A stretch of DNA of 33,016 nucleotides from Caldilineaceae bacterium (lineage in GTDB: Bacteria > Chloroflexota > Anaerolineae > Caldilineales > Caldilineaceae), in NCBI GenBank assembly GCA_026705565.1, contig JAPPAJ010000032.1, forward strand, positions 1-33,016, given 5' to 3'. The translations under genes were made by a program, and so were the position numbers. The notes under the pieces are model-generated. The model did not search any database. It saw only the letters and a list, made by a program, of their open reading frames with translations, and was not told the DNA's origin. Positions 8,337 to 30,418 of the stretch are shown piece after piece. The first letter of the stretch is position 1. Each line of letters begins with the position of its first letter.

Positions 8337-8403
8337 GGGGTGCCTCCGCGGTCAACTGATTGGTCCAGATGCGGATTGGGGCGCGGACCCGCGTTCCTTG
8401 AAC

Positions 8404-8433
8404 CAAAACGCGGCAGCCCAAGGGCTGCCGCGT
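8404..8433 (-). terminator. Hairpin terminator or attenuator between isomerase and dehydratase genes
   Basis: ACGCGGCAGCCC at 8408-8419 and GGGCTGCCGCGT at 8422-8433 are perfect complements around two bases (an 11-bp stem with a 4-base loop in practice). Read on the minus strand, the stem is followed at once by TTTTGG. This resembles a rho-independent terminator with a short T-run. It would end, or partly end, the transcript coming from the binding-protein promoter, leaving the dehydratase and the broken dehydrogenase at lower expression. Sequence alone cannot separate full termination from partial readthrough. Confidence 0.65.
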
Positions 8434-8489
8434 ACCGGTCGCCGGTGTCCAGGCGCATTGCGTTCCGCCTGCCGCGCATCCGGCTGGCT

Positions 8490-9347
8490 TCACGCCTGAA
8501 TGTGCTGGTCGGCGATGCCCTTCATCAAGTCCAGGTAATCCCACTCGGTCTTGCCGGCGGCCATCGGCTGGTCGAAGATGAGGGAAAAGGGTCCCTGGAA
8601 GTCGTGTTCGTTGAGTACGCGCATGCCGCCGATCAGATCGTCCGGGATGATGGCCCCGTCGTCGGTGTACCGGGCCTTGGCATGGGCGGACGTGGCATGC
8701 GGCGCGATCTTGGCAAATTCCTCGTAGCGATCCTCGCCCTTGAAGTTGCCGAAATCGGCACAGATGGTGATTTGGCCGTCACAGAGTTCGAGGATGGCCA
8801 GCAGCTGATCCGCCTTCAGCGACAGCTTCTTGAAATTCTCGGTAAAAACCTTCACGCCCCGTTCTGCCCCGTAGGCATGAAGCTCCTTGAGGGCATCCGC
8901 ACTTTGCCGAATGTTGGGATCCTCCGTCAGGCTGCCGTTGGCATGCACGGGATCGGTATCGCCGGCAATCACGCGGGCCGCGCTGGCGCCAAGTTCGCCC
9001 GCCGTGTCGATCCAACTGCGGATCCAGGCTGTATCCCTGTCCCGGACCGCCGGATCCGGCGCTGTGATGTCTCCATCGTCGATCAGGATTGAGTACAGTT
9101 CGACATTGTGCGTGTCCGCTTCGGCCGCAAGTTCCGCGAGATAACCCTCGTCGCGGGAACTGAAGTGGAAGTGGCACAGTTCCAAGGTGCGGATGCCGTG
9201 GGCTGCGGCCCTGCCGGGCAGTTCCAGGAGATCGATTTCCCGGGTGGGACCGGGCGGGGCTTGCTTGGCGGGATCGAAGCCGTCCAGCCACATGGCCCCC
9301 AAGGCTCGATGCAGGGTCCATGAAGAAACGGAGATACGGGCGGTCAT
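8490..9347 (-). CDS. TIM-barrel sugar isomerase/epimerase (AP endonuclease 2-like)
   Basis: Predicted metal-dependent sugar (phosphate) isomerase or epimerase, 285 residues, the normal size for the family. Recognised metal-ligand positions are E170 in F-T-E-N, D198 in A-D-F-G-N and H222 in S-A-H-A-K-A. The fourth ligand, usually a glutamate in an S-x-E/S-I-E context on the last strand, appears to be replaced in S-L-I-F-D-Q at 255-260. The start overlaps the kinase stop as ATGA (9344-9347), giving translational coupling. A longer reading to 9878 in the same frame would run through the kinase gene and is rejected. It probably acts on the imported sugar or the kinase product; direction and substrate are unknown. 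Confidence 0.85.
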   Translation of the reverse strand: MTARISVSSWTLHRALGAMWLDGFDPAKQAPPGPTREIDLLELPGRAAAHGIRTLELCHFHFSSRDEGYLAELAAEADTHNVELYSILIDDGDITAPDPAVRDRDTAWIRSWIDTAGELGASAARVIAGDTDPVHANGSLTEDPNIRQSADALKELHAYGAERGVKVFTENFKKLSLKADQLLAILELCDGQITICADFGNFKGEDRYEEFAKIAPHATSAHAKARYTDDGAIIPDDLIGGMRVLNEHDFQGPFSLIFDQPMAAGKTEWDYLDLMKGIADQHIQA

Positions 9348-10285
9348 GGTCTGGTCCTCGTTATGGGCTGGGATTCCAAGGGTTGTTCCTGCATGAGGGC
9401 ATGGACTGCATCCTGCCGCGGCAGGCCGTTGCGTGATCCTACTGTACCGCAGCAGAGCGCGGCGGTCGCGCTGGCGAACCTGAGGGTTTCCAACCAGGGA
9501 AGGCCCGCGGCCAGGGCACCTGCATATGCGCCGTGGAAAGCATCGCCGGCGCCGTTGGTATCCAGCACTTCGACCTGATGGGCAGGCATGGACCCGAACG
9601 CACCATCGCGGGCCCACAGCAGCCCCTTGTCTCCGCAGGTCACCACCAACGTCTGCCGGTCGTTGGCCAGCCGCACGACTGCGGCCGCCGGATCCGCCAG
9701 TCCCGCCAGTGCAGTCGCGTACCGCTCGGATCCGACCACGTGGTCCACGCGAACCGCCAGATCCAGGATGTCCCGGGATGCGCTGTCGGCATCGATCATC
9801 GACGGAATCCCCAGCCGTGCGGCCTGATCCAGCACCCGGTGGGCGACGGGCAACTGTCGGCCGTCCACCAGGACACAATCGGGTTGCAAGTCGGCGAGGG
9901 AGATCGCATCCGGGTCAATCGTTGGCTGTGGCAGCTTGTGGTTGACGAGCGCACGGCGGCCGTCCGGCTTGACCATGATCGCGGAGATGCTGGTGGGCAC
10001 CTCGCCGCGCAAGAGGAGATCCGTATGAACTCCGTGGGCCTCGAGTTCGGCGGCGTGGGCGTCTCCGAACATGTCCCGGCCCAGATAGGATGCCAGCCAG
10101 GTGTCGAAGCCCAGCCTCCCGGATGCGGCGGCTGCGTTGGCAGCCAACCCGCCGCCGCATTGGGCAAGGTCCCGCGCCGTACCCTTTTCGTCGGGACCGA
10201 AGTGATGGTTGACGGTGAAGGTGAGGTCCCAGCAGGCATACCCGATTGCCAGGACGCGCCCCGCCAGGATTTTGTCTACGGTCAC
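9344..10285 (-). CDS. PfkB-family carbohydrate kinase
   Basis: Ribokinase-type ATP-dependent sugar kinase, 313 residues. It shows the N-terminal substrate G-G motif in C-G-G-G-L-A-A-N-A (43-51) and the C-terminal PfkB signature D-T-N-G-A-G-D-A-F at 242-250, with catalytic base D248. The start is GTG 10285 (M-T-V-D-K-I); a CAGGA about 11 bases upstream is a weak ribosome site. It lies 69 bases downstream of the ATPase gene and its stop overlaps the isomerase start, so it belongs to the importer operon and likely phosphorylates the imported sugar or a keto-deoxy acid from it. It is the only sugar kinase in the window. The exact substrate cannot be assigned from these motifs. Confidence 0.9.
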   Translation of the reverse strand: MTVDKILAGRVLAIGYACWDLTFTVNHHFGPDEKGTARDLAQCGGGLAANAAAASGRLGFDTWLASYLGRDMFGDAHAAELEAHGVHTDLLLRGEVPTSISAIMVKPDGRRALVNHKLPQPTIDPDAISLADLQPDCVLVDGRQLPVAHRVLDQAARLGIPSMIDADSASRDILDLAVRVDHVVGSERYATALAGLADPAAAVVRLANDRQTLVVTCGDKGLLWARDGAFGSMPAHQVEVLDTNGAGDAFHGAYAGALAAGLPWLETLRFASATAALCCGTVGSRNGLPRQDAVHALMQEQPLESQPITRTRP

Positions 10286-16660: not shown

Positions 16661-18028
16661 TCAACCTTGCGTGCCGTCCAAACCGGTACCGCGCAGATCC
16701 GCCCCGGTTAGGTTGGCACCGGCCAAGTCGGCTCCGTCGAGGTTGGCATTGGCCAGATTGGCATCCACTAGAATCGCCCCGGCCAGGTTGGCGTTGGTCA
16801 AATCGGCAAACCGCAAATCGGTTCCGGTCAAATCGGCCCCTGCGAGGTTGGCCCCTGCGAGGTTGGCCCAGCCTAGGAAGCGACCGCTTAGGTCCAGGTC
16901 CTCGCCGCCTTGATTGACAATGCGCCAGACCGTCCGCCAGGTTCCCGACAACACCGTGGCATCGTCCAACTGGACATCCCTTAGATCGGTCAGGCCCAAT
17001 TCGGCTCCGTGCAGGTTGGCGCCCCGCAGATCGACATTGCGCAGAGTAGCCCGATCCAGATCCGCTTCGGTTAGATCCGCGTCCCTGAGATCCGCGCCCG
17101 TCAGGTTGGCATCCCGCAGGTTGGACGTGACCAGGGAGGTGCCCCGCAGCACGGTGCCGGAGAGGTCCGCCTCTTGCAGCACCACTCCGTTCAACATCTC
17201 GCGGCTGAGGTCCGTGCCTGCCAGCTGCCAGGCCAGTTGGGCCTGATTGTGCAGACGCCAAACCAGCATGGCCGTGGTTGGAAGCGTTGTTGTGTCATCA
17301 ATCCGGGTCTTGCGCAGGTCTGCCGCAGTCATGTTGGCGTTGGCCAAACGAGCACCGCGCAGGTCCGTGTTGTTGAATCTGGCTCCGACAAGGTTGGCCG
17401 TGCCGAAGTCAATGCCCTGCAGGTTGGCGTTGGCGAAGCTGACCCCGGACAAGTCTTGGCCTGCGATGGGTTCGTTGACAATTCTCCACATCCGCGCCCA
17501 GTGGGCGCTCAAGGCCGTGTCATCGTCTATTGTCGAGCCGCCAAGCCAGGCTCCGGTCAAGTCGGCCGATGTCATGCGGGCTCCGCGCAGGTCGGCTTCC
17601 CGCAAGTCGGCTCCCTGGAATCTTGCGCCGTCGAGAACCGTGTCGCGCAAGTCCGCGCCGCGCAGATCGGCGCGTGCGAACAACGCTCCGGTCAGATCGG
17701 ATCCGACAAAACTTGCGCGTTGGAGGCTGGTCTCCGTGAAGTTGGTGAAATAGAGGGTTGCGTCAGTGAAGTCCACGTCCGGGGCAAGCGCCATCGACAG
17801 GTTCGCGTTGGACAGGTCGAACCCGGCGAACGACCGGTCGTGCAACAGCTCGCCGGAGAGGTCAAGTCCCTGGCAGTCCCTGGGGCATTGCCGGATGAGC
17901 GGTTCCAGATACAGGTTATAGCCGTAGAACAACACCAACAGTAAGGTTGGGATGGTGATAATCAGCGCGATGGCGATGCGCCGTTTCAGGATCTGTCGTT
18001 CCATGGCCTCTGCGGCGTAGGCGCTCAT
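16661..18028 (-). CDS. Membrane-anchored pentapeptide-repeat protein
   Basis: Predicted inner-membrane protein of about 455 residues: a short basic N-terminus, one membrane helix (about 18-38), then pentapeptide repeats of the A(D/N)LxG type to the end, expected to form a right-handed beta helix outside the membrane helix. The repeats are split into four blocks by three similar linkers (about 167-192, 243-272, 354-381) of the form I/L-D-D-x-T-x-L followed by W-R-I-V-N or W-R-L-H-N and then D-L-S. Residues 47-58 after the helix also lead into D-L-S-G. Function is not known; pentapeptide proteins range from gyrase protectors to structural scaffolds. Start is uncertain: ATG 18028, ATG 18004 and TTG 18079 share the frame and none has a strong ribosome site. 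Confidence 0.88.
   Translation of the reverse strand: MSAYAAEAMERQILKRRIAIALIITIPTLLLVLFYGYNLYLEPLIRQCPRDCQGLDLSGELLHDRSFAGFDLSNANLSMALAPDVDFTDATLYFTNFTETSLQRASFVGSDLTGALFARADLRGADLRDTVLDGARFQGADLREADLRGARMTSADLTGAWLGGSTIDDDTALSAHWARMWRIVNEPIAGQDLSGVSFANANLQGIDFGTANLVGARFNNTDLRGARLANANMTAADLRKTRIDDTTTLPTTAMLVWRLHNQAQLAWQLAGTDLSREMLNGVVLQEADLSGTVLRGTSLVTSNLRDANLTGADLRDADLTEADLDRATLRNVDLRGANLHGAELGLTDLRDVQLDDATVLSGTWRTVWRIVNQGGEDLDLSGRFLGWANLAGANLAGADLTGTDLRFADLTNANLAGAILVDANLANANLDGADLAGANLTGADLRGTGLDGTQG
16835..16864. repeat. Exact 15-bp tandem duplication inside the pentapeptide gene
   Basis: The unit GGCCCCTGCGAGGTT occurs twice in direct succession (16835-16849 and 16850-16864) and starts a third copy (GGCCC). 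It is in frame and encodes two identical N-L-A-G-A units. Neighbouring repeats differ at synonymous positions, so this pair looks like a recent addition of one pentapeptide by slippage. Confidence 0.85.
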
Positions 18029-18238
18029 TGCAGTGTTCGAAACTCGTCGGACCCCTCGGTTGGCACAGGCTGTTTGCAAGGGTGTGGTGTCATCGGCTAA
18101 CTATAAGCGGGCAATGCCGTCGGGCAGGCCATTCCATGCCGGATCGCGCAACTTCCTCTCCCCAACATCGTTCTTGAAGCAACCGGGTTGGGGGATAATC
18201 ATCTTGGATCCTATTGACTCAGGAAACCCCAGTCCAAC
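18029..18238. promoter_or_regulatory. Divergent promoter region between pentapeptide gene and the seven-gene operon
   Basis: About 210 bases separate two divergent transcription units. For the plus-strand operon, GATAAT at 18194-18199 is a -10 candidate about 40 bases before ATG 18239, but the -35 side is poor (TTGAAG at 18174-18179 is only 14 bases away; TTCTTG at 18171 has 17-base spacing but few matches). For the minus-strand gene, TATAGT at 18100-18105 is a -10 candidate without a clear -35. The leader before 18239 has only AGGA about 15 bases from the ATG, so translation initiation may be weak. These calls rest on short motifs only. Confidence 0.3.
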
Positions 18239-19222
18239 ATGAAATCGATTGTCTATACCGCTCCCTGGCACATGGAGATGCGGGACACGAATGTTCCGGT
18301 ACCAGGTCCCGATGAAGTCCTGGTGGACGTCAAGGCCGTGGGCATCTGCGGGTCCGATGTGCACGGGTACACGGGCAGCACTGGTCGGCGCACGCCCCCC
18401 ATGGTGATGGGGCACGAATTCAGCGGCATCGTGTCCCGCTTTGGCAGTGGGGTCGCGGGTGTCGAGGAGGAGGACGAGGTCATCGTGTCCCCCATGTTTC
18501 CGTACGACGGCATCGGCCAGCGCCAGGTCGTCGGCGTCAACCAGCCCGGGGCCTATGCCGATCACGCCATCGTTCACAAATCCATGCTCTATCCCAAGCC
18601 GGAGGGCATGTCCTGGAACGAAGCAGCCATGTGCGAGCCCCTTTCGATCGCAGTCCACGCCATCAGCCGGACGCCGATCGCGTTGATGGATACGGTGGTC
18701 GTGGTCGGTGCCGGCACCATCGGGTTGCTCGCGCTTCAATGCGCCCGGCGCAGCGGGGCCGGCACGATCATCGTCACCGATATGAGCGAGCACCGTTTGG
18801 GACTGGCCCGCGCGGTGGGCGCCGACGTGACCATCAACGTGCGGGAAGAAGATCCGGTGACCGCCGTCATGTCCATGACGGGGCAGGCCGGCGCCGACGT
18901 TGCCATCGAGGCCGTTGGTTTGACGAAGTCGGTACAGCAGGCCCACGCCATGGTGCGCGTCGGGGGCCACGTCACCTGGATTGGCAACAGCGACCTCATG
19001 ATCGAGGTCAACATGCAGGAAGTGGTGACACGGGAATTGACCGTGGCCGGCACCTATGGGTTCAGCACGGAGTTTGAGCGGGTCATCCAGGCGATTTCCA
19101 GAAAAGTCGTCGATGTCGCATCGCTGATCGAAAAGGTCGCGCCCCTGGAGGAGGGACCGGCACTGGTTGATGGCCTGGCCAAGGGTGAACTTGACCTGAT
19201 CAAGGTCATTCTCATCCCGTGA
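18239..19222 (+). CDS. Zinc-type medium-chain dehydrogenase lacking the structural-zinc lobe
   Basis: Predicted NAD(P)-dependent alcohol/polyol or sugar-acid dehydrogenase, 327 residues. Catalytic zinc ligands are present: C37 (G-I-C-G-S-D), H59-E60 (M-G-H-E-F) and E133 in M-C-E-P. The nucleotide motif V-G-A-G-T-I-G is at 156-162. The region that normally holds four cysteines for a structural zinc is missing: after V-I-V-S-P-M-F-P (81-88) the sequence goes straight to the Q-R-x-V-x-G and P-G-A-Y-A-D-H parts. The gene is otherwise intact, so this is an in-frame loss and not decay. It opens the operon, with the isomerase ATG 20 bases after its stop. Substrate unknown; sorbitol/threonine-dehydrogenase-like enzymes are the nearest relatives by motif. 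Confidence 0.88.
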   Translation: MKSIVYTAPWHMEMRDTNVPVPGPDEVLVDVKAVGICGSDVHGYTGSTGRRTPPMVMGHEFSGIVSRFGSGVAGVEEEDEVIVSPMFPYDGIGQRQVVGVNQPGAYADHAIVHKSMLYPKPEGMSWNEAAMCEPLSIAVHAISRTPIALMDTVVVVGAGTIGLLALQCARRSGAGTIIVTDMSEHRLGLARAVGADVTINVREEDPVTAVMSMTGQAGADVAIEAVGLTKSVQQAHAMVRVGGHVTWIGNSDLMIEVNMQEVVTRELTVAGTYGFSTEFERVIQAISRKVVDVASLIEKVAPLEEGPALVDGLAKGELDLIKVILIP

Positions 19223-19241
19223 CGGCACCGTAGCGGCCACC

Positions 19242-20132
19242 ATGCACATCGCAGCCTTTCCCAAGTGCTATCTCGACGCCATTTGCGTCGACCGCACAAT
19301 GGATGTCTTTCAATGGATTGACATGGCGGATGCCCTGGAGGTTGAAGGGCTGGAACTCTACGAAGGGTTCTTTGCGTCCCTGGACCGGGGATACCTCGAG
19401 TCGATCGGCGACGCCTTGGCGCGCGGCAACCACGCGATGCCCATGCTGTGCGTGTCGGCGGATTTCACGCATCCCGACCCAACATGCCGGATCCGGGCGG
19501 TCGAACACCAGCTGCGGATGATGGAAACGGCCAGGTTTCTCGGTGGTCGCCGGACCATCAACAAAAAAATGACCGGCCAGCGCTATCCCGGTCTGTCCCT
19601 GCAGGAAGGGCTGGAGCGGGTGGCCGAGTGCTACGACCGGATTCTCCCGGTCGCGGCCGAACTGGACATCGTGCTGGCGTTGGAGAACCACTACAAGGAC
19701 GGCTATTGGACCTGGCCCGAGTTCGCGCAGAAGATGGCCGTGTTCCTCAAGGTCCTGGCCTCGGTTCCCGAGTCGCCGCATTTCGGTGTTCAGTATGATC
19801 CTTCCAATGCCTTTGTGGCAGGGGATGATCCGATTGAACTGTTGGATGCGGTCCTCCTCCGGGTGGTCACCATGCATGCCAGCGACAGGTTTCTGGCGGA
19901 GGGCGCGACCTTGGAGGACGTCAAGGCGGCCGACGGTTCCATTGGCTATCTCGATGCCCTGCAGCATGGGGTCACGGGACAGGGTCTCAACGACTACGAT
20001 GCGATATTCAGTCGCCTTGCACAGGCTGGCTTCAATGGATGGGTGAGCATTGAGGACGGCATGCACGGCATGGACGAGATGCGACGCAGCGTTGATTTCC
20101 TGCGCGCCATGCGCACCAAGCACTTCGCATAG
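19242..20132 (+). CDS. TIM-barrel sugar isomerase/epimerase (AP endonuclease 2-like)
   Basis: Predicted metal-dependent sugar isomerase or epimerase, 296 residues. All four expected metal ligands are visible: E148 (L-E-N-H), D186 (Q-Y-D-P-S-N), H212 (T-M-H-A-S-D) and E271 (S-I-E-D-G). This contrasts with the related gene at 8490, where the last ligand looks lost. No good Shine-Dalgarno precedes ATG 19242, so it may rely on coupling to the dehydrogenase 20 bases upstream. The pairing with two dehydrogenases suggests that a keto-sugar or keto-acid made by oxidation is isomerised here. Family members include xylose-isomerase-like, hydroxypyruvate isomerase and inosose enzymes, so the exact reaction is open. 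Confidence 0.88.
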   Translation: MHIAAFPKCYLDAICVDRTMDVFQWIDMADALEVEGLELYEGFFASLDRGYLESIGDALARGNHAMPMLCVSADFTHPDPTCRIRAVEHQLRMMETARFLGGRRTINKKMTGQRYPGLSLQEGLERVAECYDRILPVAAELDIVLALENHYKDGYWTWPEFAQKMAVFLKVLASVPESPHFGVQYDPSNAFVAGDDPIELLDAVLLRVVTMHASDRFLAEGATLEDVKAADGSIGYLDALQHGVTGQGLNDYDAIFSRLAQAGFNGWVSIEDGMHGMDEMRRSVDFLRAMRTKHFA

Positions 20133-20152
20133 TTTCTGGGAGAATTTGCGGC

Positions 20153-21190
20153 ATGGATGCCCTTGTCAAGTACGGTCTGGTCGACGGCCAGGTGGAGATC
20201 CGCCAGACGGACGAACCGGAGTGTCCTTCCGACCGTGTGTTGATTGGCGTGCGTGCCGCCGGCGTCTGCGGCAGCGACGTTCATCTGTGGCGCAACCACC
20301 AGAGTTGGGAAATCAATCTGCCGCTGGTGCTGGGACATGAATTCAGCGGCGAAGTCGTGGCAGTGGGTGCAGACGTGGACGGAGTGGCTGCCGGAGACCG
20401 GGTTACGTGCGAGACCGCGGCCAAGGTGTGTAGCCGCTGCAGCTACTGCTTGGGCGGTGCGTACAACCTCTGTCCCCACCGGTTGGGCTACGGAGCGCTC
20501 ATCGACGGCGCCTTCACCGACATCGTGGTCGCGCGGCCCGAGATTCTCCATCCTCTGCCCGATGCCGTGTCGTGGGAGCATGCGGCCCTGACAGAGCCGG
20601 GTTGCGTGGCGTACAACGCACTGGTTGAAAAGACCGACGTGCGGGCAGGTGACTTGGTGGTAGTTCAGGGCCCGGGGCCCATCGGCATCATGGCCCTGCA
20701 GATCGCGCGCATCCAGGGTGCCGGTACGCTGGTGGTGCTGGGAACCGGTGCCGACCAAGCCCGGCTGGACATCGCGGCCGAACTGGGAGCCGACCATGTG
20801 GTGAACATCGAGGAAGAGGATCCGCACGCCCTGGTTGGATCCTTGGGGGACGGTTTCGGTGCCGATCTGGTAGTGGATTGCACTGGCCATTCCGCCGCCC
20901 TGCAGTCCGGCATGGAGATGGTGCGCCCCAATGGTCAAATCACCAAGATTGGCTGGGGGCCGCAACCCTTGGACTTCAACCTGGATCCTCTGGTGCAGAA
21001 GGCGGCGACGCTGCAAGGCTGCTTCAGCCACACCTTCGCCACGTGGGAACGGGTTCTGACCCTGCTGCAGACCGGCCAACTCAATTTGGACCCGGTTATC
21101 GGCGGTCTGTATCCATTGACGGATTGGCACGAGGCGTTCTCGGCCATGGAGTCCGGGGCCAGTGTCAAGTCGGTCCTGGTTTGGAATTGA
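20153..21190 (+). CDS. Zinc-dependent medium-chain alcohol/polyol dehydrogenase
   Basis: Classical NAD(P)-dependent dehydrogenase of 345 residues. Catalytic zinc ligands are C39 (G-V-C-G-S-D), H62-E63 (L-G-H-E-F) and E148 (T-E-P). The structural-zinc cysteines C93, C96, C99 and C107 are present in the usual C-x2-C-x2-C-x7-C spacing, unlike the first gene of the operon. The nucleotide motif is G-P-G-P-I-G at 173-178. GGGAGA around 20138-20143 gives a good ribosome site for ATG 20153. The next gene starts 37 bases after its stop. It likely oxidises a secondary hydroxyl of a sugar, polyol or sugar acid. Confidence 0.92.
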   Translation: MDALVKYGLVDGQVEIRQTDEPECPSDRVLIGVRAAGVCGSDVHLWRNHQSWEINLPLVLGHEFSGEVVAVGADVDGVAAGDRVTCETAAKVCSRCSYCLGGAYNLCPHRLGYGALIDGAFTDIVVARPEILHPLPDAVSWEHAALTEPGCVAYNALVEKTDVRAGDLVVVQGPGPIGIMALQIARIQGAGTLVVLGTGADQARLDIAAELGADHVVNIEEEDPHALVGSLGDGFGADLVVDCTGHSAALQSGMEMVRPNGQITKIGWGPQPLDFNLDPLVQKAATLQGCFSHTFATWERVLTLLQTGQLNLDPVIGGLYPLTDWHEAFSAMESGASVKSVLVWN

Positions 21191-21227
21191 CCCAACCACT
21201 GGCAACGCGAGGGTTGAGGATGCCGCT

Positions 21228-21908
21228 ATGCCGGGAGCGCTGATTCAGTTGTCGCTGGATGTAACCACCATCCCCGAGGCCTTGGAAATGGCCCAAGCTG
21301 CCTACGATGTCGGCGTGGACTGGCTTGAAGCCGGCACGCCGCTGATCCTGGCCGAAGGGCTGCACGGTGTGCGGGCACTGCGCCGCGAATTCCCGGATAC
21401 CCCCTTGGTGGCGGATCTCAAGACCATGGACGGGGCCGGCTTGGAAGGAGAGATGATGTTCCAGGCCGGTGCCGACATGGTGGTGGTCATGGGCCAGGCC
21501 CACGACGCGAGCATCCTGGCCCAGGTGGAAATGGCCAGGCGGTACGGCAAGCAGGTGATGTGCGACGTCATGCTCTGTCCCGACAAACCGGGCCGGGCAA
21601 GGGAAGCACAGGACATGGGCGTGGACTACATCATCGTCCACACCGGATTCGACGAGCGGAACCTGGAACCGGAACGGACACCGCTCGAGGATCTTGAGGC
21701 GGTTGTCGACGCGGTCTCCATCCCGGTACAGGCCGTGGGCGGCCTGAGTGTGGAACAGGCAATAGAAACGCTGGACCTCGGCGCGCAGATCGTAGTGTTT
21801 GGGGCGCCACTGGTGATCGCCGGTGATGCCTTCAAGGCCGCGTCGGACGATTTTGCCGGTTTGATGAAGGAGATTGTTCAACGGGTACGCGAGCGGCATC
21901 CCGACTGA
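21228..21908 (+). CDS. HPS/KGPDC-family lyase (hexulose-6-phosphate synthase-like, OMP decarboxylase superfamily)
   Basis: TIM-barrel enzyme of 226 residues in the family that contains 3-hexulose-6-phosphate synthase (HPS) and 3-keto-L-gulonate-6-phosphate decarboxylase (KGPDC). Metal and catalytic positions are visible: D11, E35 (L-E-A-G-T-P), D63-x-K65-x-x-D68 (D-L-K-T-M-D) and H138. At discriminating sites it looks HPS-like: C-D-V-M at 112-115, where KGPDC has a Glu, and H-T-G-F-D at 138-142, where KGPDC has an Arg. No 6-phospho-3-hexuloisomerase partner is nearby, and PdxA and SDR neighbours suggest sugar-acid decarboxylation, so function is open between aldol and decarboxylase chemistry. 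ATG 21228 has GAGG about 8 bases upstream; an in-frame extension to 21162 would overlap the dehydrogenase. Confidence 0.87.
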   Translation: MPGALIQLSLDVTTIPEALEMAQAAYDVGVDWLEAGTPLILAEGLHGVRALRREFPDTPLVADLKTMDGAGLEGEMMFQAGADMVVVMGQAHDASILAQVEMARRYGKQVMCDVMLCPDKPGRAREAQDMGVDYIIVHTGFDERNLEPERTPLEDLEAVVDAVSIPVQAVGGLSVEQAIETLDLGAQIVVFGAPLVIAGDAFKAASDDFAGLMKEIVQRVRERHPD

Positions 21909-21947
21909 AAGGAGTCGGATGCAGTCAACCTTTTGGGGGAAATAGGC

Positions 21948-23261
21948 ATGCAACTGATAGAGCAAATCCAGAATCTGGACTTCCCGGCGCCCTTGCCGGA
22001 CAAGGTCCTTTCGGTTCACCAGACGTTCGACACGGTCAAGGTTGCGGACATCCACGCCCGGGTCCTGGAGGCCTGGGACGAAAGTGGCGTGCTGACCCGC
22101 ATGAAGCCGGGAGCGGTGGTCGGGGTGGGTGCCGGCAGCCGCGGCATTGCCAACATCCCGATGCTGGTCAGGGGTTCGGTCGACTGGCTGAAGGCCCACG
22201 GCTTCCGGCCGTTCGTGTTTCCGGCCATGGGCAGTCACGGCGGGGCGATCGCCGAAGGGCAGAAGACGATGCTGGCAGAACTTGGGGTTACGGAAGAAAG
22301 TGCGGGTTGCGAAATCCGGGCGACCATGGAGGTTGAACCGATTGGCGAAATCCCGGATGGCGGGCCGATCCTGTACCAGGGGAAGGACTCGATGGCGGCC
22401 GACCACTGCGTTCTGGTAAGCCGCATCAAACCGCACACCGACTTCCGAAGCCACCTTGAGAGCGGACCGTCAAAGATGTGCGTCATCGGTTTCGGCAAGC
22501 AGCACGGAGCTTCCATCATGCATGGCGGTGGCGGGGCCTTCTTCCAGAAGTACCTTGCGCCTGCCGCCCGCATCTACGCCGACAATACCAACTTCATTGG
22601 CGCCCTCTGTCCGGTTGAGAACGCCTATGACGAGACCGCGCGCATTGAGTTCCTGACTTCCGATCAGGTCGGCCTGGAACCCGAAGCGGGATTGTTGCAG
22701 GTGGCCAAGGACATGATGGCCAGCCTGCCCTTCCCCGAAATCGACGTGCTCGTGGTACGGGAGATGGGCAAGAATATCAGCGGCACCGGCATGGACACCA
22801 ACATCGTGAGCCGCCTCATGATCCCGCGCCAGGAGGAGGAGTTCGGGACTTCGGACGTGGCTGTGATCACGGTCCTTGACCTGACCGAGGAGACCCACGG
22901 TAATGTTGCCGGTTTGGGTCTGGCCAACATCACGACCGCGCGCGTGGCGGAGAAGATCGATTGGCATGCCACGTATACCAATGCGGTCACGTCCGGGATT
23001 TTCGGCATGTTCCGGGTCAGTCTGCCCATCACCATGCCGTCGGACGAGAAGTCGCTGCATGTCTCCATGCGTGGTTGTGCGCGGCCGCCTGAGGATGCGC
23101 GCCTGGTGTTCATCGAGAACACACTCATCCTTGACGATTTCTATGCCAGCCCATGCCTCCTCTCGGAGATCGAGGCGCATCCCCGGCTGTCCGTGACCGG
23201 AGAGGTTCCCCTTGCGTTCAGCGAGCCCGGAGTGATGCAGAGCCCTTGGCGATTGAATTGA
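21948..23261 (+). CDS. LarA-like (DUF2088) racemase/epimerase-family protein
   Basis: 437-residue member of the lactate racemase (LarA) superfamily, recognised from V-G-V-G-A-G-S-R-G (58-66), A-M-G-S-H-G-G (93-99), R-I-K-P-H-T-D (159-165) and S-G-P-S-K (172-176). LarA uses a nickel-pincer nucleotide fixed to a lysine; K176 is the likely counterpart, with H97, H163 and H186 as possible catalytic or nickel ligands. By family knowledge it would racemise or epimerise a 2-hydroxy acid. The cofactor-making genes larB, larC and larE are not in the window. GGGGGA at 21935-21940 supports ATG 21948 over TTG 21933. It lies between the HPS-like lyase and PdxA genes, so a sugar-acid C2 epimerase is a reasonable guess. 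Confidence 0.82.
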   Translation: MQLIEQIQNLDFPAPLPDKVLSVHQTFDTVKVADIHARVLEAWDESGVLTRMKPGAVVGVGAGSRGIANIPMLVRGSVDWLKAHGFRPFVFPAMGSHGGAIAEGQKTMLAELGVTEESAGCEIRATMEVEPIGEIPDGGPILYQGKDSMAADHCVLVSRIKPHTDFRSHLESGPSKMCVIGFGKQHGASIMHGGGGAFFQKYLAPAARIYADNTNFIGALCPVENAYDETARIEFLTSDQVGLEPEAGLLQVAKDMMASLPFPEIDVLVVREMGKNISGTGMDTNIVSRLMIPRQEEEFGTSDVAVITVLDLTEETHGNVAGLGLANITTARVAEKIDWHATYTNAVTSGIFGMFRVSLPITMPSDEKSLHVSMRGCARPPEDARLVFIENTLILDDFYASPCLLSEIEAHPRLSVTGEVPLAFSEPGVMQSPWRLN

Positions 23262-24277
23262 CCACGCAATCGGCCCTTGGGCTTCTTCTCGGCGACCCGG
23301 CGGGGGTCGGACCCCAGCTGGCGGTGCGGTTGTTGGCGGAACCGTTGCCGGCACAAGTCAGACTGATTGTGGTTGGCCGCCGCGCGTGGCTGCGGCGCGG
23401 CGCACAACAAGCCCAATTGCCGGAACCGGACCTTCCCGCCATGGCGTTGGCTGACTTGGACACGGTGCCCATCGACTGCCCGATCCTGTTGGAGCCGGAA
23501 GGCGATGACCTGGACCGGGTTCCGGTTGCATCGGTGTCCCGGGAAGCCGGCACCGGTTGCATGGCAAGCCTGCGCACGGTAGCAGACTTGGTCGCGCGCG
23601 GCGTGCTTGCGGGATTCCTATACGGTCCCATGCACAAGCAGTCCTTGCAACTGGGCGGTTCGCGCCATCCGGACGACGCTGCACTGTTGACGGAGTTGTT
23701 CGAGTGTCCGGCTTCGGCCCACGAGATCAACATACTCGACGATTGGTGCACGTCGCGCGTTACATCCCACATTCCGCTGGCTGAAGTCCCTGCCCGGGTT
23801 TCGGCTCCCGGCGTGCTGACAGCCATTGAACAGCTGCATGCCGTCATGCAGAACCTGAATTTGCCGGACTCCCGCATCGGTGTGGCTGGCCTCAATCCCC
23901 ATGCCGGCGAGGGAGGGTTGTTCGGGGACGAGGAAGTGGAAGTGATTGGTCCCGCGGTTGAGGAGGGCCGCCGGCGAGGCATTCCGGTGCACGGACCGTT
24001 CCCGCCGGACACGCTTTTCGTACGCCTTGCGGATGGTCAGTTCGGTGGTGCCGTCACGATGTACCACGACCAGGGGCAGATTGCCATCAAGCTGCTTGGT
24101 TTTGCCCGCGGAGTCACGGTGATCGGCGGGCTGCCGGTACCCGTTGCCACCACCGCCCACGGCACCGCCTTCGACATCGTGGAACAAGGTACCGCACGAC
24201 CCCACTCGCTGATCAATGCACTCAAGGTCTGTTCGTCGTTGGTCACCAACAACAGGAAATGGTCAGATGCTTCTTAA
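23258..24277 (+). CDS. pdxA: PdxA-family 4-phospho-hydroxy-acid dehydrogenase (PdxA/PdxA2-like)
   Basis: NAD-dependent oxidative decarboxylase, about 339 residues. It begins G-L-L-L-G-D-P-A-G-V-G-P, the PdxA N-terminal signature. The three metal-binding histidines are H171 (T-S-H-I-P-L), H215 (N-P-H-A-G-E-G-G) and H270 (Y-H-D-Q-G). PdxA makes the pyridoxal phosphate precursor from 4-phospho-hydroxythreonine, while PdxA2 relatives act on 4-phospho-erythronate/threonate in sugar-acid breakdown. No other vitamin B6 gene is here, so the catabolic role is favoured. No kinase is in this operon to make the phosphate ester. Start: TTG 23258 overlaps the LarA-like stop (TTGA); TTG 23246 is an alternative. 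The stop overlaps the next gene by 11 bases. Confidence 0.88.
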   Translation: MTTQSALGLLLGDPAGVGPQLAVRLLAEPLPAQVRLIVVGRRAWLRRGAQQAQLPEPDLPAMALADLDTVPIDCPILLEPEGDDLDRVPVASVSREAGTGCMASLRTVADLVARGVLAGFLYGPMHKQSLQLGGSRHPDDAALLTELFECPASAHEINILDDWCTSRVTSHIPLAEVPARVSAPGVLTAIEQLHAVMQNLNLPDSRIGVAGLNPHAGEGGLFGDEEVEVIGPAVEEGRRRGIPVHGPFPPDTLFVRLADGQFGGAVTMYHDQGQIAIKLLGFARGVTVIGGLPVPVATTAHGTAFDIVEQGTARPHSLINALKVCSSLVTNNRKWSDAS

Positions 24278-25049
24278 GGACAAGGTGGTTCTGGTTACCG
24301 GATCAACCACCGGCATTGGCGAGGCAATCGCCAGGAAGTGTGTGGCGGAAGGTGCTTCCGTCATGGTTCACGGACGACGTGAACATGCAGCCCAGGACTT
24401 GTGCGCGGAACTCGGCGATGCGGCCGCCTACACCGTGGGCGACGTTGCAGACCCCGAGCTTTGCGAGTCCCTGGTGGCCAACACGGTCAACCGGTTTGGA
24501 CGGATAGACGGGGTTGCCAACAACGCGGCCATTACCGCCCGGGCCACCATCGAACAGACCGACGCGGCCACGTTTGATCGCCACTATCACGTCAACCTGC
24601 GGGCTCCCGCCCTCATCATCCGTGCCGCCTTGCCGCACTTCCGTGCCCAAGGCGAGGGTACCGTGGTCAATATCGGTTCGGTCAACGCCTGGTCGGGACA
24701 GGCCGATCTGATGCCCTATTCCGCGTCCAAGGGTGGTTTGCAGACGATGACCCGCAACATGGCCAACGCCCTGGCCGAGGATCGGGTTCGGATCAACCAA
24801 CTGAACGTCGGCTGGTGCACGTCGCCCAACGAGATTGCGCTCAAAATCTCGGAGGGACTGCCGGAGGACTGGTACCTGAACGTACCCACGGCCTTCGCAC
24901 CCACCGGGAGGCTTCTAACTCCGGACCAGGTGGCGCACCATGTCGCGTTCTGGCTGTCACCGGACTCCCAGCCGGCCAACGGCTGTGTCTATGAGTTGGA
25001 GCAGTTTTGTATTCTGGGTCGCAGTTCGGCCCGTGACTGGGACGATTGA
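24267..25049 (+). CDS. Short-chain dehydrogenase/reductase (SDR)
   Basis: Classical SDR of 260 residues, predicted to oxidise or reduce a hydroxyl/keto group with NAD(P). Motifs: T-G-S-T-T-G-I-G at 11-18, N-N-A-A at 85-88 (usual N-N-A-G), N110, catalytic S138 in N-I-G-S-V-N, and Y151-S-A-S-K155. The start ATG 24267 lies inside the PdxA coding end (11-base overlap), so the two are translationally coupled. A longer in-frame start at 24216 would deepen the overlap. It is the last gene of the seven-gene operon and is followed by the convergent helicase gene about 100 bases away, with no clear terminator seen between them. Substrate unknown. Confidence 0.92.
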   Translation: MLLKDKVVLVTGSTTGIGEAIARKCVAEGASVMVHGRREHAAQDLCAELGDAAAYTVGDVADPELCESLVANTVNRFGRIDGVANNAAITARATIEQTDAATFDRHYHVNLRAPALIIRAALPHFRAQGEGTVVNIGSVNAWSGQADLMPYSASKGGLQTMTRNMANALAEDRVRINQLNVGWCTSPNEIALKISEGLPEDWYLNVPTAFAPTGRLLTPDQVAHHVAFWLSPDSQPANGCVYELEQFCILGRSSARDWDD

Positions 25050-25147: not shown

Positions 25148-28100
25148 TCAAACGCGGATACGCGCGATACCCCGATTCCAGCTAAGTTCCACCATCGGGA
25201 CTTCCCAAGTCGTGGTCCGGTTTTTCTCGCGGTATTTCTCGTCCTCATCCTCGACGCTGCGGCGAACCATGGCAAGCACGGTGCCTTGGACCTTGGAGCC
25301 GGCAATCCGCTCGACTTTCTCCCGGCCTTTCCTACTCAGGGATGCTACGGTGGTGCCATTGTGACTGAGCTTTCGTTTGCTCGTTTCCAGCATCACCGTG
25401 TCGCCTGCATGCAGATTCGGCAGTGCTTCATGGATGCGGTCGCTCTCGGCCTTTCGGCCCGCGAAGCTGAGGTATAGGTCCGATAGCCCCAACGTTGCAT
25501 ACCCCCTTAATGGGTAGGAGCCGCTTCTCGGCCCCTCCCTATGCAGGCATGCCTGGCCCAGAATGTGTCTCAGGTGTGGGTTGTCCGCATGATAGCGGTG
25601 AAACAGGACCAAACAGTCCTTGGCTCGGGTCATGGCCACATAGAACAGTCTGCGCTCCTCCTCAAGTTGATCCCGCCGTTGGAGCTGCCAGTAACCGTCC
25701 AAGACCAGCACCACACGGAATTCCAGCCCCTTGACGCTGTGTGCCGTGCCTGTGAATACGCCCTTGCCCACTCGTTGTTCTCGGCGGGTTTCGAGCAGGC
25801 AGTCGGCCATGTACGACGTGAACGCCTGTACGGGAAACTCGCTGCCGCCGGTCTCTAACTCCCAGTGTTCCTGCATCGCCTTCAACTGGGCTGTCCGCGG
25901 GCCATCTTTGAGGTTCAGGTGGGTCAGTTGCCGGGCAAGGTCCACATGGGTGAACAGTGCCGTTCTGAACCCGTGAAGGTGCTTGAATGCGGTGTCAAAT
26001 TCTCTGATACGAAATGGGGAAACGGTTTCGTCGCTGCCCAAAGGGAGGCTCAGGGGTATGCCGGCATGATTCGCCGCTGAGCGGAAGTGGTCCAGTTCAT
26101 CACCGGTGAGGCCTCGTCTGGCCAGGACAGCACAGTCTTCCCAGGCCAGGTCCGGCAACAAGCCCTTGAGTCTGGTCAGTTCCGTCACGGCGGCCAGTGC
26201 CTGCGCGACGGTGTCCTGGCAGTTCACGACTTGCACACGGCCGCGCAGCCCACGATCAACGTTCGCCAGGATGCCTCCAGGGTGGTGGTTGCGGCGTTCC
26301 TCGTTGATGCGGATTTCATATTCCGTCTTCATCCGGTCGCGGTTGTGCGCGATCAGTTGATTGGCGGCCGCAATGATGTGATCGGTGGACCGGTAGTTCT
26401 GGACCAAATAGTGGCGTTGCGCACAGTAGTCCTTCTCAAACTGCCGGATGAACCTGACATTGGCCCCCCGGAATGCGTAGATGCTCTGGTCGTCGTCGCC
26501 GACAGCCATGATGCTCAGCTTGTCGTCCGATTCCTCGATGGTGCGCCCGGCGATCGCCGAGATCATCTCGTACTGCGGCGCATCGATGTCCTGGTACTCG
26601 TCCACCAGGATGTATTGGAAGCCGGCCAGCAACCGTTCGCGCAACTGATCGTCCGGGATGCCCGGAACGTCCGACCGCCCCATCAGCAGTGCTGTTGCCT
26701 GGGCAATCATCCTGTCGAAGTCAAGGGGATCTCGGTGGCGGGTTGTGTGACCGTCCGGCAACGCGGCATGGCCAACCAGGCGCAAGGCCAGACCGTGGTA
26801 GGTCTGGACGGTTATGGACCGTGCGTCGTCTCCCAACAGGTTCTTGAAACGCCGACGCAGTTCCACCGCCGTGCTGTGGTTGAAACAGAGGACCAGGATG
26901 CTGAATGGGGGAACCCTTTCCACGCGGATCAGGTAGGCGCATCTATGCACGACTACCTTGGTCTTGCCCGAACCGGGACCGGCCAGTACGAGCATGTTGC
27001 TGTCGGCAGGGGCCTGCACGATCGCCTGTTGGTGCGGATTGCCCAGTGATTCGACGATGCTGGCAAAGGACTGCTGGCTGGTGGCCAGGTCCAGGAGTTC
27101 TCGCCTGCCCCGGAAGTAGCGCCGGTTGAAGCTGATGTTGTCCAACTTGAAGTAATCGGCCACCAGGGCCTTGGCCACCTTCATGCTTTCCTGGCTCAAC
27201 TGAGCGTATTCGTTGACGACGTGCACCTGGTTGACCTTGGCCTTGTAGTGGCTGTCCAACGGTGCATAGTCCCCCCGGTTGTACCTGCGCTCCCTGGCTT
27301 CGTCCTTGAGGTTCATGGTCATGGCTTGGCGGAACACCGCTAGGCCATGCTGCAGGATGATGATGTTTTGTTCGTGCAGGAACAACAGGCCCCGTTCGAT
27401 TGCGGCCAAAGAGTTGTCCGAATCCTTGATCAACTCGACGCATCCTTCTTCAATCTCCCTGAGCGAGAACTGAACAAGGACTTCAGCTTGGGAGGACGCG
27501 TGTTCTGCCGGGATCCTGGCATACAGTTCCGCGAGAATTTGTCTGGCAAGGTTGTGGCGCTTCTTGATGGTGGCCTTGAGGTTGGGCCAATCCCGGTTCA
27601 GGGCGACCAGATAGTGATCCTTGCGACTGAACTCGAACTCGATGCTGCCCTTCCGGCCTGCCATCCCTCGGCCGTCCGCGGCAATACTCTTAAGCAAATT
27701 TCGAAGTAGGGAGGGATTGCTGTGTGCCCAACCTTGGTTGATCAGCATTTGGTTGAGCCGCCGCAGATCCAACGGGTATGCCGTTTCAAGGTCGGCGTCT
27801 GGATGTTCGTTTTCCAGTGATGCCACCATTTCGTTCTCAACCCGGCAGACTGCCTCGAATTCGCGCTGTGCCGCCTTGGAGCCTTTGGGGCGCAGGAAGG
27901 TGGTCATGAGCAAACCGTCGGAAACTATGCCGGCCTGCGCCATCTGATTCAGAATGCGGATGACCTCCTGGCTGCCGATCCCGCGTGCTTCCTGTTCGTC
28001 AACGAGGCTTCCCATTTGATGAGCCAGGAAATCCGCATTCAACCCGTCGTCAATGTCCGAATTGATCAGGACCTGAAGGAGAAGTTCCCAGTTTCGCCTC

Positions 28101-30418
28101 TGACCGGTTTTGAGTTGCAGTGAATCTAGTTTGCCTGTGGCTTCCTCCAAGGTTGCAAAGAGGGGCTTGCCGTTGAACACCTGGGTGGAGTTGTGGTTTC
28201 GGTCGAGGAAACCTCCGCGTTCCAGCCACGCGACCGCAGTCTTGACCTTGGTGTCGGCCGATCGGTCGGTGATGTCGAACGATGTGTCGACGTCGTTCGA
28301 TCGCAGCAGTTCTCCAGACGTCATGACGATTTCCTTGCCCGGTATCCGTTCCTTCCTGCGGATGCCCCTCAGGACCTGTTGGATGTCCCTTTGGGAAATC
28401 CGGGACATGTTGCCCAGCCTAAACTGGGTCTCAATGTCCTGTTCATCGAACAGGAGGATGCAGGCGGCGGGACGGCTGTCCCGACCGGCCCGACCGGCTT
28501 CCTGCAGGTAGTTTTCGAGCGAACCCGGCACCTCGACGTGCAGGACCATCCTCACGTTATCCTTGTCCACACCCATGCCGAAGGCATTGGTGGCGCAAAT
28601 GACTTTCAGCCGGTCGTGAACAAAGGCTTCCAGCACCTCCTTTTTCCGGACCGGATCCAAGCCTCCGTGAAAGTGGGCGGCCTCGAATCCCTTCAATGCC
28701 AGGAAACGAGCGGTCTCCTCGCTCGATTTCCGTGTGGAGCAGTAGACGATGCAACTGCCATCGTCCGGGAGCCGCTCCTCCAACAGCTCGGCCGCCATGG
28801 CCCACTTCGTTGCCTTTGGCACAAACCGGACCTCGAACTCAAGATTCGCCCGTTCCACACCGGCGGCATGCAGGGAAAGTGTACAGTCCAGGGCGGAGGC
28901 GAAATGTTGTCGGATGTCTTCGATGACATCCTGTTTGGCCGTCGCCGTGTAGCAGGCGATGGCAGGGGGAAACTCCTGGTTCTTGGACGACTGCTCCTTG
29001 ATGAACCGGCTGACGTACAGGTAGTCGGGACGGAAGTCGGGACCCCACTTCGACAGGCAGTGGGCCTCGTCGAATACCCAGCATCCGATCTCCCTGTGGG
29101 ACAAGGCATCCACCACCGTGCGGTTCCTGAGCTGTTCCGGGGCAAGGTAGAGGAGACCAATGTCACCCATTCGAACCTGTTCCAGGACGGCACCGCGTTC
29201 GGGCGGTGTGAGCAGGCCGTAGACAGCTGCCACTTCGGTCACACCGGTCCGCTCGCGCAGGTTGTCGACCTGGTCCTTCATCAGGGCTTGCAAAGGAGAA
29301 ACCACCACCGTGAGCAGCCCGCGCCGGAAGTAGCGGACCAGGGCCGGAAGCTGGTAGCAAAGAGATTTCCCTCCACTGGTCGGCAGAACGCCGAGCAGTG
29401 AGGCACCGTTAATGCCTGCTTCCGAGAGTGTTCGTTGCAGGGGTTGCCCATCTTCCGTGAGGCGAAAGTCCTCGAACTGGAACAACCGCCGCAGTTGGGT
29501 GACTGCATCATGGTTTCTGCAACAGTAGGCACAGCTGTCCTGCCCACAGGACAGCTCCCGCAGTTTCCGCAGTATGCCGGGGAGCTCTACATGCTGGCGG
29601 CGTACCCACTCGGGCAGTACGGAATTGCCGCCTGCCACCCTCAGCCAGGCCACACAATAGGCCCAGGTCGGCAACGACTCGCTGTGGGCAATGGATTCCC
29701 GGACCAAGCGCCGCAACAGGTTCGGGCACGCGTGCTCGTTGCCAAGCCCGATGGCAACGGTTTGGACTTCCTGATGGGAGGCAATCGTTGGCTGGACCAG
29801 CGTGTCGAGCATGCCGGCCATGCCTTGGAAGGGCATGGTGCCGTTTGCATCCGTTGCCCGACGAAAGCAGAAGGCGTAGAACCGAATCAGGTCCGGCACG
29901 GTATCCGCCTGTTGCCGGAAGGAGTCGTACTGGTCACTGAACAAACGGATGGCGAGCTTGGCATCGGCCACCGGATCGTTGACTGTGTCCTTGACCAGCT
30001 TGTAGTTCTTGACCAGACGATGGTACGGGTTGCGGGGAAACGCCAGCGGTGACAGGTACAGGGTATCGATGACTCGAGTCTTGAGGAGGTCCAGGCCAGG
30101 TTTGAGATCTCTTATGACGACCAGATCATGTCCAATCAAATTGTGGCCGAGCAGGTATTTGCAGCCTGTGCAGAACCTGTCAAGTTCCTTCAATGCTGTC
30201 GAAATCTGCTTGGCACTGGACGGCTTGCGTCTAAACGTGTGACCGTCGAATCGCACGGCGCCAATGTCTGACACCAATCTACCGTTGCGATGCACTTCCA
30301 AGTCGACTGCGACCCATGGCTTGATCACCTGGGGAAGGTCGGAGGGAAGCGTCTTTGGGTCCAAAGCCGTCATCGGGTTGTCTGGAGTGCGGGAAACCAT
30401 CGCCGAATCTGCACACAT
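25148..30418 (-). CDS. Giant exonuclease-RecQ-UvrD fusion helicase
   Basis: One 1756-residue open frame joins three enzymes. Residues about 35-165 resemble a DEDD 3'-5' exonuclease (D39-x-E41, H-N-L-I-G-H-D98, D152). A cysteine cluster (C291, C296, C299, C300) follows. Residues about 325-665 are a RecQ-type SF2 helicase: T-S-G-G-K-S at 347-352, D-E-A-H at 450-453, T-A-T-A at 491-494, Q-E-A-G-R-A-G-R at 639-646. Residues about 1125-1610 are a UvrD-like SF1 helicase: G-P-G-S-G-K-T at 1147-1153, D-E-Y-Q-D at 1273-1277, G-D-D-D-Q-S-I-Y at 1307-1314, H-S-V-K-G-L-E-F at 1560-1567, V-A-M-T-R-A-K at 1594-1600. The parts at 670-1120 and 1640-1756 are unassigned. It probably processes DNA ends or structures in repair or defence; neighbours give no clue. 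ATG 30418 has only a weak ribosome site; 30400 and 30373 are alternatives. Confidence 0.93.
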   Translation of the reverse strand: MCADSAMVSRTPDNPMTALDPKTLPSDLPQVIKPWVAVDLEVHRNGRLVSDIGAVRFDGHTFRRKPSSAKQISTALKELDRFCTGCKYLLGHNLIGHDLVVIRDLKPGLDLLKTRVIDTLYLSPLAFPRNPYHRLVKNYKLVKDTVNDPVADAKLAIRLFSDQYDSFRQQADTVPDLIRFYAFCFRRATDANGTMPFQGMAGMLDTLVQPTIASHQEVQTVAIGLGNEHACPNLLRRLVRESIAHSESLPTWAYCVAWLRVAGGNSVLPEWVRRQHVELPGILRKLRELSCGQDSCAYCCRNHDAVTQLRRLFQFEDFRLTEDGQPLQRTLSEAGINGASLLGVLPTSGGKSLCYQLPALVRYFRRGLLTVVVSPLQALMKDQVDNLRERTGVTEVAAVYGLLTPPERGAVLEQVRMGDIGLLYLAPEQLRNRTVVDALSHREIGCWVFDEAHCLSKWGPDFRPDYLYVSRFIKEQSSKNQEFPPAIACYTATAKQDVIEDIRQHFASALDCTLSLHAAGVERANLEFEVRFVPKATKWAMAAELLEERLPDDGSCIVYCSTRKSSEETARFLALKGFEAAHFHGGLDPVRKKEVLEAFVHDRLKVICATNAFGMGVDKDNVRMVLHVEVPGSLENYLQEAGRAGRDSRPAACILLFDEQDIETQFRLGNMSRISQRDIQQVLRGIRRKERIPGKEIVMTSGELLRSNDVDTSFDITDRSADTKVKTAVAWLERGGFLDRNHNSTQVFNGKPLFATLEEATGKLDSLQLKTGQRRNWELLLQVLINSDIDDGLNADFLAHQMGSLVDEQEARGIGSQEVIRILNQMAQAGIVSDGLLMTTFLRPKGSKAAQREFEAVCRVENEMVASLENEHPDADLETAYPLDLRRLNQMLINQGWAHSNPSLLRNLLKSIAADGRGMAGRKGSIEFEFSRKDHYLVALNRDWPNLKATIKKRHNLARQILAELYARIPAEHASSQAEVLVQFSLREIEEGCVELIKDSDNSLAAIERGLLFLHEQNIIILQHGLAVFRQAMTMNLKDEARERRYNRGDYAPLDSHYKAKVNQVHVVNEYAQLSQESMKVAKALVADYFKLDNISFNRRYFRGRRELLDLATSQQSFASIVESLGNPHQQAIVQAPADSNMLVLAGPGSGKTKVVVHRCAYLIRVERVPPFSILVLCFNHSTAVELRRRFKNLLGDDARSITVQTYHGLALRLVGHAALPDGHTTRHRDPLDFDRMIAQATALLMGRSDVPGIPDDQLRERLLAGFQYILVDEYQDIDAPQYEMISAIAGRTIEESDDKLSIMAVGDDDQSIYAFRGANVRFIRQFEKDYCAQRHYLVQNYRSTDHIIAAANQLIAHNRDRMKTEYEIRINEERRNHHPGGILANVDRGLRGRVQVVNCQDTVAQALAAVTELTRLKGLLPDLAWEDCAVLARRGLTGDELDHFRSAANHAGIPLSLPLGSDETVSPFRIREFDTAFKHLHGFRTALFTHVDLARQLTHLNLKDGPRTAQLKAMQEHWELETGGSEFPVQAFTSYMADCLLETRREQRVGKGVFTGTAHSVKGLEFRVVLVLDGYWQLQRRDQLEEERRLFYVAMTRAKDCLVLFHRYHADNPHLRHILGQACLHREGPRSGSYPLRGYATLGLSDLYLSFAGRKAESDRIHEALPNLHAGDTVMLETSKRKLSHNGTTVASLSRKGREKVERIAGSKVQGTVLAMVRRSVEDEDEKYREKNRTTTWEVPMVELSWNRGIARIRV

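Follow-up and report, generated by a model that had tools for sequence, protein, structure and literature searches.

What pathway could be served by an operon that pairs a lyase related to 3-hexulose-6-phosphate synthase (HPS) with a LarA-like protein and a PdxA-family enzyme, and that carries no kinase gene? The operon lies in a window of 33,016 nucleotides, the whole stretch of DNA analysed here, from a MAG of a probably sponge-associated Caldilineaceae bacterium (Chloroflexota) whose genome is 96% complete. Our results favour, tentatively and with slightly less than an even chance of being right, a catabolic route for sugar acids (aldonates) that needs no kinase. We rate the operon as a variation on known sugar-acid catabolism and not as a new kind of system.

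Gene content and organization of the operon

Seven open reading frames on the plus strand are present between positions 18239 and 25049, and family searches with Pfam and NCBIfam gave the following gene types:

ADH1, 18239-19222, plus strand: zinc-type medium-chain dehydrogenase, Tdh/IolM-like (PF00107/PF08240 above cut-off, under all NCBIfam equivalog cut-offs); probable sugar, polyol or aldonate dehydrogenase
ISO, 19242-20132, plus strand: xylose-isomerase-like TIM barrel (AP_endonuc_2, PF01261); probable ketose epimerase/isomerase
ADH2, 20153-21190, plus strand: zinc-type dehydrogenase, threonine 3-dehydrogenase/sorbitol dehydrogenase-like (Pfam and NCBIfam searches); proposed aldonate 3-dehydrogenase
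HPS-like lyase, 21228-21908, plus strand: OMPDC/HUMPS family (PF00215)
NPN isomerase, 21948-23261, plus strand: LarA superfamily, group 22 (NF052515, 446 bits); proposed 2-hydroxyacid (aldonate) C2 epimerase
PdxA, 23246-24277, plus strand: PdxA-family dehydrogenase (PF04166, 239 bits; TTG start inferred from loci L007-L009); proposed to oxidise and decarboxylate an unphosphorylated 3-hydroxy acid
SDR, 24267-25049, plus strand: short-chain dehydrogenase/reductase (PF00106/PF13561); proposed ketose/polyol or sugar dehydrogenase

The starts of the last four genes were reset against relatives (HPS-like 21228, LarA-like 21948, PdxA 23246 with TTG, SDR 24267). In order, the genes are separated by gaps of 19, 20, 37 and 39 bases and then overlap by 16 and 11 bases. 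Between them we found no clear sigma-70 promoter and no clear plus-strand terminator; a single plus-strand terminator-like match lies inside the NPN isomerase gene, and the number of matches was not above that in shuffled sequences. A first-pass annotation had described seven tightly packed genes of these types, and both points were borne out, the LarA-like protein being refined to a nickel pincer cofactor-dependent (NPN) isomerase of group 22. It was also right that no kinase, phosphotransferase or aldolase gene (class I or II) occurs within the seven-gene span, and, as it had supposed, the set matches no described pathway that we could find.

Conservation of the operon and of its parts

When the HPS-like protein was used to search bacterial genomes, 32 loci were obtained, all of them in MAGs labelled as Chloroflexota groups, many of which we read as sponge-associated from isolate names and a published study (PMC5649159). 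Three layouts were distinguished among these loci. In layout A (L007-L009, Caldilineaceae/Caldilineales), all seven genes occur in identical order with 93-98% identity (97-98% for ADH1 and for SDR), and dN/dS is 0.02-0.17 for all seven; the operon is therefore not a chance arrangement. Layout B (L010 and L012-L015, other Caldilineaceae) consists of ADH2, the HPS-like gene, the NPN isomerase gene and PdxA, followed by a DegT-like gene; beyond it lies a DUF1537 kinase gene in the reverse orientation. In layout C (L016 and others), ISO, ADH2 and the HPS-like gene lie next to a family 5 ABC transporter that is divergently oriented; NPN and PdxA genes are absent from the locus.

ISO, ADH2 and HPS without NPN or PdxA were found in about 15 other Chloroflexota loci and in genome G016. 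The linkage of ADH2 and HPS is kept in nearly every relative whose DNA stretch spans ADH2, and the ISO orthologs that adjoin this pair in other Chloroflexota are 60-63% identical to the ISO of the window, for which PDB searches gave weak matches to D-tagatose 3-epimerase and Art22. In a survey of 301 Chloroflexota genomes, just a handful encode the HPS-like subfamily, with ISO and ADH2 as neighbours in G016, ISO in G298, and ADH2 and an SDR in G173. Single loci show other combinations: L071 has a 44% SDR homolog beside HPS and ADH2, and L081 a 55% ISO ortholog close to a group 22 NPN gene. The first-pass annotation had named a set not kept together in relatives as evidence against its reading, and this was partly observed: the complete seven-gene set is known from one lineage only, and its two recurring parts are kept more widely, namely isomerase, zinc-type dehydrogenase and HPS-like lyase on the one hand, and NPN isomerase and PdxA on the other.

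The PdxA-family enzyme belongs to a clade with an altered phosphate site

The PdxA protein scores below the PdxA equivalog cut-off (TIGR00557, 226 vs 290 bits); the kinase-linked PdxA of locus L004 reaches 360 bits. In an alignment with E. coli PdxA, it reads D, A, T and V where the E. coli enzyme has H136, T137, N283 and R292, and it retains the metal ligands H166, H211 and H266 as well as D247, D267 and K274. Of the residues H136, T137, K274, N283 and R292, which we take to bind the substrate phosphate in the E. coli PdxA structure, K274 alone is kept.

We compared 50 Chloroflexota PdxA neighbourhoods together with layout A, layout B and plasmid loci. DUF1537 acid-sugar kinases are the usual partners of catabolic PdxA enzymes, feeding PdxA2, and a DUF1537 gene was nearby for 19 of the 41 PdxAs with R292. 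The Halarchaeum and Rubrobacter PdxAs encoded near DUF1537 keep the canonical residues. The PdxAs without R292 fall mainly into one clade of 17 sequences that includes the window protein (support 99/98). Its members have D or E (G in one) at position 136 and T (S in one) at position 283, and mostly read TTPAHGT or TTAHGT where other PdxAs read RTSVDHGT. Within this clade, DUF1537 is close by only in five layout B genomes, and the window and layout B proteins are sisters (97/95). Plasmid-borne members have neighbours that are not kinases: the Paracoccus gene has TRAP transporter and rhamnonate-dehydratase genes beside it, and the Cupriavidus gene adjoins a similar dehydratase gene.

The simplest reading of these residue patterns is that the clade would act on unphosphorylated 3-hydroxy acids, so that the earlier premise of a phosphorylated PdxA substrate seems not to hold for it. 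Kinase loss was considered as the cause of the change and rejected: the layout B proteins show the same losses and yet have DUF1537 nearby, and the residue change therefore did not follow loss of the kinase. By sequence match to PDB entries, the window protein is nearer to PdxA2 (6e85) than to TphB (4aty). The residue signature may separate enzymes for phosphorylated acids from those for unphosphorylated ones, and many proteins annotated as PdxA may be mislabelled. AlphaFold models of the PdxA and NPN proteins were of low confidence (pLDDT 57 and 38, respectively).

The lyase is nearer to HPS than to KGPDC

The HPS-like protein scores under the HPS cut-off (TIGR03128, 172 vs 200 bits) and far under the KGPDC cut-offs (80 vs 250 and 67 vs 294 bits); its closest families are HPS and HPS-RraA, and its best PDB match by sequence is a solved HPS (9lj9). 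A subfamily alignment shows that the catalytic Asp, Glu, DxKxxD and His are kept. At positions 112, 139, 169 and 192 (KGPDC numbering), which are known to separate HPS from KGPDC, the latter having Glu112 and Arg192, it reads D, F, V and A and is again nearer to HPS. The GG and G-loop glycines, phosphate-binding in HPS and KGPDC, are retained, so that the lyase may still use a phosphorylated substrate. The subfamily carries the motif VGAPLVI or FGAPLVI, with GAPL where relatives have GSAI or GGAI; a proline in the phosphate loop is also found in OMP decarboxylases.

The NPN isomerase is conserved in a lineage without detectable cofactor genes

The LarA-like protein exceeds the cut-off of NF052515 (nickel pincer cofactor-dependent isomerase, group 22) with 446 vs 400 bits, and had no match in Pfam or, by sequence, in the PDB. 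All group 22 proteins that we looked at, that of the window included, have intact equivalents of LarA R75, H108, H174, K184 and H200, assigned by motif and spacing and not by structure. No match above cut-off to LarB, LarC or LarE was found in the window genome or in three layout A MAGs (G000-G003). All three genes are present and close together in the five layout B genomes (G004-G008); the seven layout C genomes searched each have a group 22 gene but neither LarC nor LarB. The NPN isomerase may therefore be idle in the window lineage or use an imported cofactor. Decay of the isomerase after loss of LarBCE was rejected, given its intact residues and a dN/dS of 0.03-0.04, which indicates strong purifying selection.

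The missing cofactor genes are the most surprising element of this system. Among the 301 surveyed genomes, 86 have a group 22 gene above cut-off, and 72 of these 86 have a LarC match. The exceptions cluster: in genus g60, six of seven genomes, including two that are single contigs, have no LarC match, the seventh has LarC as weak pieces only, and LarB gave no match above cut-off in any of them. Genes for LarBCE without larA have been reported in about 15% of genomes (PMC11796402); we found no description of the reverse case in the literature examined. There are thus lineages, single-contig genomes among them, in which LarA-type enzymes have preserved their cofactor residues and no LarB or LarC is detectable. 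Salvage of the cofactor, or some other route to it, becomes directly testable in this way. Our literature search found no paper joining an NPN isomerase with PdxA, and no characterised group 22 NPN isomerase or group 22 substrate; the present operon places this group in a catabolic context.

Proposed pathway

The operon most likely isomerises, oxidises and decarboxylates unphosphorylated aldonates. ADH2 would oxidise C3 of the aldonate to give a 3-keto acid, from which the HPS-like enzyme would remove C1 as CO2 (or as formaldehyde, given its HPS-type active site), and ISO would epimerise or isomerise the resulting ketose. Alongside these steps, or with the shortened acid as substrate, the NPN isomerase would invert C2 of an aldonate, and the PdxA-type enzyme would oxidise C3 with NAD and then decarboxylate the product to a shorter ketose. 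ADH1 and SDR would carry out the remaining redox steps. The gene set with its linkage and conservation, the residue changes and the missing genes are what we observed; the substrates, the order of the steps and the action of the HPS-like enzyme on an unphosphorylated 3-keto acid are what we infer.

The adjacent divergent operon fits a sugar-acid theme. It encodes a YjhG/YagF D-xylonate dehydratase (1097 bits vs a cut-off of 808), an enzyme of non-phosphorylated pentonate breakdown, together with a family 5 ABC transporter and a PfkB protein. Some observations speak against the aldonate route: the lyase keeps its GG and G-loop, and its D112 and A192 resemble a formaldehyde-fixing HPS and not a decarboxylase. 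In the sister lineage DUF1537 lies two genes from the same type of PdxA, so that the route may involve a kinase in those genomes. The cofactor genes not found in the window lineage also weigh against the proposal. That the route is non-phosphorylated throughout, with HPS-fold and PdxA-fold decarboxylases both lacking phosphate recognition and the NPN cofactor obtained from the community and not self-made, we regard as unlikely.

Kinase candidates and alternative explanations

The first-pass annotation had left two options, a non-phosphorylated variant or a kinase from elsewhere, naming the PfkB at 9344. The former gains from the residues lost in PdxA and from the genome-wide search for DUF1537 (PF07005), which gave no match in G000-G003; the five layout B genomes had one match apiece. 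Under the latter, a kinase such as PfkB (9344-10285) would deliver phosphorylated products to HPS and PdxA. This gene lies 8 kb from the operon, three sibling MAGs likewise carry it on the operon contig with 97-98% conservation, and the phosphate-loop glycines of the lyase would suit such substrates. PfkB is, however, ribokinase-like and on the opposite strand, and the same-contig linkage is seen only in layout A: layout B homologs are 44-46% identical and on other contigs, and the layout C genomes, with ISO-ADH2-HPS, have none or matches of about 30%. With this weak linkage, PfkB was rejected as a dedicated kinase and is therefore not regarded as the missing one; together with the altered phosphate site of PdxA and the lack of DUF1537 matches, this makes a phosphorylated pathway improbable.

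If the lyase were instead a true 3-hexulose-6-phosphate synthase/lyase, the operon would handle formaldehyde or hexulose phosphates by ribulose monophosphate chemistry, as its closest families and its D112 and A192 would suggest. We consider this doubtful, since the lyase does not reach the HPS cut-off, its subfamily is marked by a GAPL motif and is encoded together with ADH2 and ISO, and 6-phospho-3-hexuloisomerase is absent from the operon and was not noticed in the loci of relatives, in contrast to L073, a real HPS-PHI-type locus. Quite unlikely, in our judgement, is a tetronate pathway in which the NPN isomerase interconverts erythronate and threonate, PdxA yields dihydroxyacetone, and the remaining genes act on a different sugar. 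LarA homologs epimerise 4-deoxy-threonate/erythronate (PMC11770544), and group 22 NPN genes lie near DUF1537 and PdxA in Halarchaeum, Rubrobacter and two Chloroflexota; but the PdxAs beside those genes are of the phosphate-binding type, unlike that of the window, and elsewhere group 22 genes have aldonate dehydratase genes as neighbours, so that group 22 substrates vary.

Comparison with known systems

The Ula/Sgb pathway for ascorbate and 3-keto-L-gulonate uses the UlaD decarboxylase and the UlaE epimerase, and thus pairs a lyase of the HPS/KGPDC fold with an AP_endonuc_2 ketose epimerase, as the operon does with the HPS-like protein and ISO, whose proposed steps mirror this chemistry without phosphate. 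The operon differs in having no kinase or PTS and a lyase nearer to HPS than to KGPDC, and it adds zinc-type dehydrogenases, an NPN isomerase and PdxA. TphB, the terephthalate dihydrodiol dehydrogenase, is a PdxA-family enzyme with an unphosphorylated substrate; it shares the PdxA fold with the window protein, a likeness drawn from the overall sequence match (4aty, E 1.2e-20), and its pathway is aromatic. As in the NPN isomerases of the LarA superfamily (PMC7583248, PMC11770544), the cofactor-binding residues and both catalytic His are conserved in the window protein, but searches of its genome found no LarB, LarC or LarE.

The animal glucuronate route carries out the chemistry proposed here, likewise with an aldonate that is not phosphorylated, through L-gulonate 3-dehydrogenase and 3-dehydro-L-gulonate decarboxylase (PMC12435205); that decarboxylase is C11orf54 (DUF1907), a zinc fold unrelated to the lyase of the window. 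The catabolism of D-threonate and D-erythronate by DUF1537 and PdxA2 differs from the window, in which no DUF1537 was found and PdxA lacks phosphate-site residues and falls below the equivalog cut-off. It likewise involves oxidative decarboxylation of a sugar acid by a PdxA-family enzyme, and in some genomes group 22 NPN genes lie beside the DUF1537-PdxA2 pair.

Group 22 isomerases and the cofactor synthesis proteins

Nickel-pincer-nucleotide (NPN) isomerases of group 22, within the LarA superfamily, are present in the window genome (G000), in the three MAGs with the same operon (G001-G003), in G009-G015, and in the seven genomes of the Chloroflexota genus g60 (G067, G101, G133, G149, G221, G253, and G289). 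In every member read from these genomes, the cofactor and catalytic residues are intact. No LarB over the cut-off was found in any of these genomes, and LarC was not found in any of them apart from G253, where only weak pieces were detected; two of the genomes that gave no LarC match consist of a single contig. The window genome encodes a second group 22 isomerase:

G000:C132:8808-9956 (L074), 44% identical, residues intact

Plasmid-borne PdxA homologues

The PdxA clade lacking the phosphate-site residues includes three proteins encoded on proteobacterial plasmids:

L085, 7995-9011
L083, around 8001-9023
L084, 7980-9053

Rhamnonate-dehydratase-type genes lie close to two of these three genes, and therefore the annotation of the plasmid proteins as 4-hydroxythreonine-4-phosphate dehydrogenases may be mistaken.

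Gene neighbourhoods

Several layout C loci, which carry the isomerase, Zn-dehydrogenase, and HPS-like genes without the NPN isomerase or PdxA, share a pair of proteins encoded after the HPS-like gene; an NCBIfam search with the pair from L016 gave no match. At L151, a LarA-like gene was called by eye.

L016, 8812-12103, two consecutive proteins, each about 515 aa, downstream of the HPS-like gene
L151, 9691-11046, LarA-like gene; a PdxA with an altered phosphate site and a TctC-like binding protein are encoded about 3.6 kb away

In the window, a divergent operon encodes a family 5 ABC transporter, PfkB, a TIM-barrel isomerase, and a D-xylonate dehydratase, and is separated from the seven-gene operon by a pentapeptide-repeat gene.

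6360-8336, minus strand, YjhG/YagF family D-xylonate dehydratase (1097 bits against a cut-off of 808)
16661-18079, minus strand, 472-aa pentapeptide-repeat protein with a membrane-like N-terminal stretch
25148-30418, minus strand, 1756-aa protein whose single chain carries both RecQ-like DEAD and UvrD helicase domains
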